Positions 37,635 to 40,476 of a stretch of 64,000 nucleotides of DNA are shown piece by piece. How positions within the stretch are numbered: position 1 is the stretch's first letter; each line of letters opens with the position of its first letter. Location of the stretch: assembly GCA_024281995.1 (NCBI GenBank), contig JAMWZW010000013.1, positions 16,915-80,914 of the forward strand. The letters are read 5' to 3'. The notes below the pieces were generated by a model. That model did no database searches and was not told where the DNA came from. It saw only the letters and a list, made by a program, of their open reading frames with translations. A program made the translations under genes and the position numbers. The stretch comes from Nitrosomonas sp. GTDB lineage: Bacteria; Pseudomonadota; Gammaproteobacteria; Burkholderiales; Nitrosomonadaceae.

Positions 37635-38221
37635 TTACTTCTTCTCTGAGCTGCGTGAGGCTATCCACTCCCTGAAACGCCTTGATCTAATCAGTTTATA
37701 CCCAAGTATCGTTGCCAGCAATAGACCGACTACCGGTCCTATCCATGCTCTAAATACTTCCGCATAATTGATCATCTCTACACGTAAATGATATTCATAA
37801 TTAAGTGGTGGAATCCCTTCGGCCGTAACCAATATAAGATATTTCCCTTGATCGAATACATTCTGAGTGCTAATAACGCCATCGTGATATAACGCCAAAC
37901 ATTATGTGCGTGACCGTCTCCCTTCATCAATCTTATTACCTTTAATTACTTTCATTCCAATTGGCATATCGCGCAGCGAGGGATCTACTAGATCTATCAC
38001 GAGTATAGTATTACCTGCCTTAGGTATATCCGTACAGTAATGGCCTTCTTCATCCTCTTGAGGTTGGTAAGTGCTTAGATGAATCATATTCTCGCCGATT
38101 CTACGCATACAGCTATCTTCTTCCATCGCCGCTTTACCATGGGCTCCAACTGTATTGCATAAAGCGCTATTACAAACTCAACAAGAACAGAAATCCTTGT
38201 TTGTGCTATTTGCCTAACCAC
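37635..38221 (-). pseudogene. amoE: AmoE (orf4), AmoD paralogue, frameshifted as written
   Basis: Its parts align with AmoD: signal region, AHGKAAMEEDSCM, NMIHLSTYQPQ, YCTDIP, VIDLVDPSLRDMP, a beta-rich segment, and a C-terminal helix with RSRRFREW. The likely start is GTG 38221, behind AAGGAGG. The frame breaks at least three times: between the signal peptide and AHG (about 38135-38165), near 37918-37923 (one base missing in the GGAGAG run), and near 37887-37892 (one base extra). Repairing these gives a normal protein of about 195 aa. Either true decay or consensus error. Confidence 0.82.
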
Positions 38222-38318
38222 GACAAATTCCTCCTTTGGGTCAGCACCCTTAACTTTGCTTTGCTTCTGTGTTCGCATCTTCTGTGGTGCCGTAAATTTT
38301 ACTGTATTTTCTGCTGAT

Positions 38319-38362
38319 AAAAAAACCGGTACACCGGCTGTCGTTGACAGTGGCGTACCGGT
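38319..38362 (-). terminator. Rho-independent terminator after amoB
   Basis: On the minus strand, an 8-bp perfect stem (ACCGGTAC / GTACCGGT, plus strand 38325-38332 and 38355-38362) has an inner CTGTC/GACAG pairing. It is followed directly by seven T residues (38319-38325 as A on the plus strand). It lies 18 nt after the amoB stop, separating amoCAB from amoE-amoD-copC-copD. Confidence 0.8.
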
Positions 38363-38380
38363 GTTGATACTTGCTTTCGC

Positions 38381-39653
38381 TTATAGCTTCGTGAAGACCG
38401 GTATTACCGCTCCAGCAATACTATTAATATAACGATTGCCTTGTTCATCCCATGTCATCAATAATCCACCAAAACGACTTTCTGGGTCACCCAACAACGC
38501 CATCAAACGTTGTACTTCCCATAATGCGTCTTTAGCTTCCATCTTAACTTCACGGGTCTCTCCTGGTTGAATCGCTCTGTCATCTTCCATCGTCAAACCA
38601 GTCGCTACCAGTTCTCTCGGATAGTCAGGATCTAAGTGCGATTGCCCAAGCTTGTTAACAAAACGCACACCAGCTGTCGTGCGTAGTCCCCCTATGTTCA
38701 CCGGAGAATCTCCATTGTTGGTGATGTCCATCGTTACACGTAATGCACGTCCAGGTACGTCATAGTTCGCATGCGTTACTTTAATCGCTACCGGATTCGG
38801 TGCAATTGGCATCAGGTTCTACTTTGACTCACCTGCCTGAATCGGTACTGTGTAGGGATGTACGCTCTCTGTATAACGATAGCCTCCCCATACCAACGCA
38901 CAGGTCAGTATCGCTACCGCCCACGCCAATTTACGATCAAATGGATCCAGTAACAGTTCATCACCATATGCCAACAGAGTACACCATTTACAGGGTTACA
39001 ACATCGGACGAGCTACAAATGCACCAATCCAGAAACAGCCTAAGCCTAACCATACAATGTGCCAAAACACACCGTTTGAAAAGTTAAACGTCTCCAGATC
39101 CTCAATCGTTTTTCCTGTCAACGTGGTTACAGGGTTAGTAAAGTCATCCCAGCTGCCTGAAATGTTCATCCATGCTGCTGGTCCTGAATAGGGCCCGCAT
39201 CTTTTACGTTCACCATTGCATGCATGTGATGACGGCCTGGAATACGCGCTTTCAGTTTAACTTCAAACTCATAGTCACGGCCAATTACCAGTGGTCCTGA
39301 AAATAAAATGTAGGTTCTCCATTTAACTTGGTGCTCAAACGTACAAATACCGGACTTGGGCTACCTACGTTAAAAAACGCGCGTTCGGGTTTACCTACCG
39401 CACGTGGCCAGTCTTCCGCCAGATGGAATTTCCCTGTCATGGTTGCAATGTCATTGACCTTGGTGACTTTCGGTTGCCATTTCAGGTCATACCATTGAAT
39501 ACTACGCATACGAAGAAATGGTTCTTGTGAACGTTCACCATGCGCCGCCACCGTCTTTACGTCCACCGTTAACGTCAGCGCCAATGATGCCGCTCCTATC
39601 GCAGCTCCGTACAGGCCTAACACTCCCAGCTTAAAAATGCTCTTTATACTCAT
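38381..39653 (-). pseudogene. amoB: Ammonia monooxygenase subunit B, multiply frameshifted as written
   Basis: The translated pieces cover AmoB end to end: signal peptide ending VAA|HGERSQ (mature His38, a copper ligand in PmoB-type proteins), the HHMHAM copper motif, two C-terminal helices, and the end VIPVFTKL. The frame is broken near 39299-39309 (two extra bases in T runs), 39186-39188 (one base missing), 38812-38814 (one extra) and 38820-38825 (one missing). An in-frame TAA also lies at 38996-38998 in a garbled stretch. The net shift (+1) agrees with the frames of the first and last pieces. Expected length is about 420 aa. Confidence 0.9.
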
Positions 39654-40476
39654 TATTTGATCCCCTGTGCAAAGCCTTTTTCACCAAATGCCGTTACGTC
39701 GTTCTTCATAGAGATACGACCTCTTTCTCCTTTAACATAGTAGAAAGCGGTGCAATATAGCTTGCCAAAGTACCACCATACGCAGAACATCAGCATCGAT
39801 ACAAACGCTGAGAAGAATGCTGCAATTACTGTCGTGTGACCACCAAAGGTACGCAGTGAACCTTGTTCAATCAAGCGAACATATTCTGGTGTACCCGTAC
39901 GTACATACAGGAAACCTGTGTAGTCAGCTACTGATAACAGTACACCTTCAACTACCACCGGTAAGTGGGTGGGACCAAAAATCGGCCAGTTGCCCGGGTA
40001 GAAGAATAATCCAAAAAATCCTCCTCCTAACAGCGCTGTTACCAGCCAGTTACCCGTCAACAGTAAAATCGTATCCATCATCAACGCACCAGGAATCATG
40101 GTCGATGGCAACACAAAGTTAAGTGGATAATGTGACCACCAGTAAAAACCCCAGTAACGAGTCAGCCATTCTCCTACCAGCGGACATACGATACATAAGG
40201 TTGCTCCAAATGGCAGGCGATAGTTCACCATAAATAATACATTAACGCTGCACAGTACATGATCCCTACAATCGGGGTTACTACCGGCCACCATTGACGA
40301 TCTTTCCAATCAAGCCAAAAGTCCCAGTCCCCTGCCAATAGCATGAAGTGCATGTGGTATGTGCCAACCAAAAGAATACATAAAATTGGAAAATACACTG
40401 CATCAATATATCTGGACATCCTTACCGCTTCTGGCGGCATCTTTGCCGCTGCTATAATTTCGTCTGTTCTACTCAC
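39653..40476 (-). pseudogene. amoA: Ammonia monooxygenase subunit A, one frameshift as written
   Basis: Membrane subunit and standard marker of ammonia oxidisers. The likely start is GTG 40476 ([18 protein letters not shown]), preceded by AAGGGAGG. The first 83 codons end at a TGA created by loss of one G (TGG-GTG read as TGGTGA) at 40228-40230; the remainder continues in the next frame as [12 protein letters not shown]... to FAQGIK. One added base restores a normal 274-aa AmoA. The stop overlaps the amoB ATG by one base. A Leu-to-Pro change (IVCPLVGEW) is also seen, judged against remembered sequences. Confidence 0.92.

Follow-up and report, generated by a model that had tools for sequence, protein, structure and literature searches.

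The amo and hao genes are used as markers of nitrification, and what has been described of them in related bacteria frames the locus analysed here. Three amo operons are reported for N. ureae Nm10 (PMC4786657) and for Nitrosomonas sp. Is79 (PMC3764937). In the excerpts of the Nitrosomonadales reports drawn on here, two of three amoCAB operons are followed by amoE-amoD, an orphan amoC is present, and there are three or four hao clusters, with copies that are near-identical within a genome (PMC4786657, PMC3764937, PMC6053082). In an excerpt from one of these reports, the near-identity of amo, hao and cyc copies is described alongside concerted evolution (PMC6053082). The Polypolish paper also reports that repeats keep residual errors during polishing: short reads align preferentially to the error-free copy, and the faulty one stays uncorrected (PMC8812927). 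The near-identity of the amo, hao and cyc copies therefore makes these operons prone to residual repeat errors. In the Nitrosomonas genome considered below, one amo operon has broken amoA, amoB and amoE genes, and there is strong reason to believe that these breaks are consensus or gap-filling errors in a multi-copy repeat and not natural decay.

Organization and frame state of the amo locus

The window (the whole stretch of 64,000 nucleotides that was analysed) lies within contig C21 of a 2.88 Mb assembly in 21 contigs, for which contamination is estimated at 0.83%. On the coding strand, reading from 41,447 to 36,969, the gene order is amoC-amoA-amoB-amoE-amoD, then copC and copD; this betaproteobacterial amoCABED order followed by copCD is likewise present in relatives such as L020. 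The features are listed below, where C7, C12 and C3 are other contigs of the same assembly.

34414..36444, minus strand: copD, intact open frame, unique flank
36454..36861, minus strand: copC, intact, unique flank
36969..41685, minus strand: extent of the amoCABED repeat (C7 homology from 41,685 to 38,317; edges set by the C12 end, 41,616-41,685, and the C3 end, 36,969-37,045)
36969..37550, minus strand: amoD, frame intact; last 77 bp recur at the C3 contig end
37635..38278, minus strand: amoE, frame broken near 38,158 and at 37,899-37,919
38381..39653, minus strand: amoB, several frame-disrupting indels, in-frame stop at 38,821, three extra codons
38978..38999, minus strand: garbled patch in amoB, several adjacent bases replaced with a net gain of three (C7 nucleotide comparison)
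39653..40497, minus strand: amoA, single frameshift near 40,228 (frameshift-aware alignment, C7 comparison)
40638..41447, minus strand: amoC, intact; its 269 aa are the same as in the C7 copy, from which the family name is taken
42216..42731, plus strand: insertion-sequence relic, the internal yardstick for real decay
42911..43999, minus strand: hemH, intact open frame, unique flank on the amoC side

The C7 copy matches the families PF04896, PF02461 and PF04744 (NCBIfam AmoC/A/B_BACT), whilst the names amoE and amoD rest on homology and position; Pfam and NCBIfam models gave no match for the amoD of the window or for an amoE-like protein on contig C2. The CopD protein (34414-36444) combines a CopD domain with a cytochrome c domain and an AhpC/TSA-like domain (Pfam).

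Frames were called by frameshift-aware protein-to-DNA alignment against references that include L018, L020 and L021. When amoA and amoB of C7 were aligned to L018 as a positive control, zero events were obtained, so the method does not invent breaks, and nucleotide comparison with C7 flagged the same amoA and amoB sites as the protein alignment. From amoA to amoE there are about eight frame-disrupting indels in about 2.3 kb, along with one in-frame stop and three extra in-frame codons, and the alignment thereby recovers the at least eight small indels and single in-frame stop that an earlier note on this DNA had reported for these genes. The lone event in amoA is a one-base loss at 40,227-40,229. 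In amoB two bases are gained near 39,304, one is lost near 39,186, and a -1/+1 pair around 38,822-38,814 creates the in-frame TAG at 38,821; the extra codons fall near 39,103, at 38,986-38,998 (inside the garbled patch) and near 38,683. The errors of amoE are judged solely against other species, this gene being missing from C7. One base is lost near 38,158, and a garbled patch (37,899-37,919) reads as a -1/+1 pair at 37,919/37,899 with references L020 and L021 but as an in-frame stop at 37,904 with L018; an extra codon at 38,179 may be a species difference. In 14 stretches of the window, each 500 bp or longer and together 12.5 kb, there is no ORF of at least 150 aa; the longest of them is amoE-amoB, 37,551-39,652.

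The same note had described amoC, amoD, copC and copD as clean, and they are. All 269 residues of AmoC match the C7 copy (269/269, zero frame events), and neither amoD nor copC has a frame break, amoD showing in-frame length differences from other species. The copD gene is one open frame of 676 aa, and the sole frame event in its alignment falls within residues 1-4 of the reference, which begins too early, ahead of the true start codon.

Other copies of the amo operon in the genome

Contig C7 carries an intact amoC-amoA-amoB that is 99% identical to the window over 3.37 kb and is followed by an esterase gene, with no amoED. The idea that the window locus is the sole amo copy is ruled out by this second operon. 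Two further contigs break off just within the repeat. The final 70 bp of C12, up to its last base at 146,248, match the amoC-upstream edge (41,616-41,685) exactly, and the final 77 bp of C3, up to its last base at 242,590, are an exact match to the end of amoD. Both ends point into an operon that is absent from the assembly, and no assembled operon continues from either. There are thus three upstream flanks (C7, C21 and C12) and three downstream flanks (C7, C21 and C3) for two assembled operons, and three amo operons are required to account for them. It appears that the bacterium carries about three nearly identical amo copies, one of which is missing from the assembly; the earlier expectation of two or three near-identical amoCAB copies agrees with the 99% identity of the C7 copy and with the third copy implied by the contig ends. 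Contig-end overlaps of exactly 77 bp, found in three cases (C3, C15 and C10), suggest a k-mer assembly.

Which flanks belong together has been compared in relatives. In L023 (MAG ACE_PRO53), trkA-trkH-regulator-amoCABED-secF-secD forms one locus, uniting a C12-like flank (trkA-trkH-regulator) on one side with a C3-like flank (secF-secD) on the other, and in L018 (MAG LK110, the closest amoB) amoCABED adjoins secF. Unlike L023, L027 and L031 have the trk flank (as on C12) before amoCAB and then the esterase gene (as on C7). Given the arrangement in L027 and L031, the C12 and C3 flanks of the present genome may or may not belong to one locus. The variation among L023, L027 and L031 would stem either from genuine rearrangement or from false joins made across the repeat, and those on C7 and C21 might be false as well.

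Contig C2 (L017:1229-2705) has a solitary amoC that is nearly identical to those of the operons; the gene after it is a strongly diverged amoE-like one, beside which no amoD was seen, as if homogenization stops at the end of amoC.

The hao cluster as a control

A repeat artefact in the amo operons would predict damage in the other long repeat of the organism too. HAO is required for ammonia oxidation, and a PF13447 search of the assembly found one hao gene, on contig C1, which is split into three matches; no intact hao copy was found by this search, whereas amo has the intact C7 copy. The hao-cycAB cluster (G000:C1:711,535-716,138; L120:8,536-13,139) has frameshifts in haoA and cycB, about nine in the former and three in the latter when compared with the intact cluster L154, a count that leaves out two weak edge events in haoB (where the reference begins inside the gene) and cycA (residue 4). 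The next gene downstream of the cluster and thrS have zero frame breaks, and upstream rpoC is one open frame of 1402 aa. The hao cluster, as the one other long repeat compared with amo, is therefore damaged in the same way, and its unique neighbours are clean. An ammonia oxidizer cannot live on the one hao gene as written, and since HAO is needed and the sole assembled copy is broken, intact copies, or an intact true sequence at this site, must exist. Four other contig ends lie in this repeat, with C15, C10 and C16 ending and C7 beginning inside it, and probably two more hao copies have been collapsed.

The position of the damage is similar in the two repeats. In both, the frame breaks are internal: those of the amo repeat begin 1.46 kb in from one edge and stop 0.93 kb short of the other, and the corresponding margins of the hao repeat are about 0.45 kb and about 0.5 kb. 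This layout fits the use of poor-quality sequence to close a gap whose ends were well covered. Both tuf genes, which form a repeat of about 1.2 kb, are intact and agree at 1,185 of 1,188 bases.

amoB and hao in relatives, and broken copies in other assemblies

AmoB was searched for in 120 genomes of the family, 77 of which match. Among the matching genomes with at most four contigs, to which the copy figures apply (partial matches from many-contig drafts lie outside them), every amoB copy in 18 of 20 (50 copies in total) is full length and free of stops; of the other two, G050 has three full copies and additional fragments at a contig end, and G106 has two short fragments. For hao, 20 genomes were chosen (17 of the 18 with clean amoB, plus G050, G077 and G106): 19 match, G077 being the one of the 20 without a match, and every one of the 55 matches is full length and stop-free (55/55).

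Broken amo copies do occur in other public assemblies. In L074 (JAMWZY010000006.1, MAG JAMMSM_AOB_5), amoC, copC and copD are open and amoA, amoB, amoE and amoD are broken; its amoC is identical to the sister copy, and the amoAB stretch has 20 indels and 61 substitutions. This broken copy lies mid-contig, and the same genome has an intact second amo copy elsewhere (L027). The resemblance to the window extends to the clean amoC, the broken amoA, amoB and amoE, the open copC and copD and the intact second copy, but L074 has more errors (the 20 indels of its amoAB stretch) and amoD is hit too. The contig names of L074 begin with ‘opera’, which we take to be the name of a hybrid assembler. In L075 (NZ_OCMZ01000002.1, Nitrosovibrio sp. 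Nv4) a broken amoB at a contig end has lost eight single bases and has five substitutions relative to an intact copy. It had been considered, from tblastn identities of 48-58%, that L074 and L075 might be divergent amo paralogs; this was rejected when ORFs and same-genome alignments revealed frameshifted, near-identical copies.

Explanations for the broken genes

The genome thus has a multi-copy amo repeat inside which contigs end; its hao repeat is damaged in like manner, and the unique flanks are clean. An assembly artefact is favoured because the contig ends betray a missing third copy, the sole hao found is damaged, the unique flanks are clean and amoB is intact in 18 of the 20 low-contig relatives. 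The recurrence of the pattern in L074 and the intact tuf pair speak for it too. The amoCABED of the window would then be one of about three nearly identical amo copies in this Nitrosomonas genome, with one copy lost from the assembly and the interior of the window copy filled with low-quality consensus. The filler would most likely be long-read or gap-closing sequence that was left uncorrected, short reads having no unique placement on it, so that the edges of the repeat (amoC and amoD) would come out clean and errors would pile up in amoA-amoB-amoE. In the organism itself the amo genes probably have intact frames and encode a normal ammonia monooxygenase. Some observations run counter to an artefact: the C7 copy is clean within the same repeat family, so one copy was assembled correctly; the pairing of flanks varies among relatives; some changes lie outside base runs; and the comparator L074 is also rich in substitutions (61, against 20 indels).

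Real decay, in which the window copy is a pseudogene and C7 and the unassembled third copy carry ammonia oxidation, seems improbable, though the intact C7 copy would make the loss of one amo copy tolerable, and it is described in part of one report that when one amoA or haoA copy is inactivated the remaining copies are more highly expressed (PMC6053082). Several of the amo changes also fall outside base runs, as decay would allow. The balance of indels and substitutions bears on this explanation. By hand count, amoA plus amoB differ from C7 by about eight indel events and by three single substitutions outside the garbled patches; one of these substitutions (40,223) is six bases from an indel. 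Between the insertion-sequence relic (42,216-42,731) and a related copy there are 45 substitutions and 4 indels, a ratio that sums both lineages, and the copies serving as this yardstick may be relics themselves. Relatives of the relic about 90% identical to it are found on C1 and C14, with a shorter match on C16. Fisher's test of amoAB against the relic gives p 2.5e-5 to 2.6e-5 when the garbled patches are set aside, p 0.014 or 0.049 when their bases are counted as substitutions, and p 0.16 from the raw MAFFT count (6 indels, 22 substitutions), in which MAFFT had turned the amoB -1/+1 pair of the window-C7 comparison into seven substitutions. The five versions thus span p 2.5e-5 to 0.16, and the outcome hinges on how the garbled patches are counted; on the raw count the ratio is not significantly different from that of the relic, as decay would have it. 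As an argument for an artefact, the apparent richness in indels is supportive, not decisive. What weighs against decay is that it would also have to strike the sole assembled hao of the same genome, and that it would sit in the interior of both repeats, against the ongoing homogenization of copies that part of the same report describes (PMC6053082); moreover, all 50 amoB copies in 18 of the 20 low-contig relatives are full length (50/50). A form of decay in which one amo and one hao copy are both truly decaying, homogenization with their sisters having stopped, as an early step from three copies to fewer, is less likely still. The earlier note had offered two explanations, a decaying copy and a poor consensus; the second is supported by the contig ends, the hao damage, the clean flanks and the 18 of 20 relatives, and the first is not supported.

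It is very unlikely that the consensus blends copies from two co-occurring strains into a sequence that no single genome has, for although the garbled patches at 38,978-38,999 and 37,899-37,919 resemble blends and some contamination is estimated (0.83%), the unique flanks and the tuf pair lack such damage, AmoC and AmoA otherwise differ hardly at all from their C7 counterparts, and frameshifts are not produced by strain mixing alone.

Comparison with known systems

An assembly artefact leaves a biology that is most likely ordinary, with intact multi-copy genes for ammonia oxidation, and an amoCABED-copCD operon of the usual kind whose consensus is faulty is the best reading of the locus. The amo and hao genes are liable to be missing or broken in draft genomes and MAGs because they lie inside long near-identical repeats, and claims of pseudogenized amo or hao from such assemblies need to be checked against reads. 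As in the repeat errors described in the Polypolish excerpt (PMC8812927), errors gather here in repeated sequence and unique sequence is clean; unlike the case described there, a whole further copy is absent. Set against the operons in the excerpted Nitrosomonadales reports, the genome differs in that amoA, amoB and amoE are broken and that one hao was found, also broken, both of which are attributed to assembly. What it shares with those operons is the arrangement itself: three amoCAB operons, as required here by the contig flanks, two of them followed by amoE-amoD, an orphan amoC, probably three hao clusters, and copies that are near-identical within the genome.
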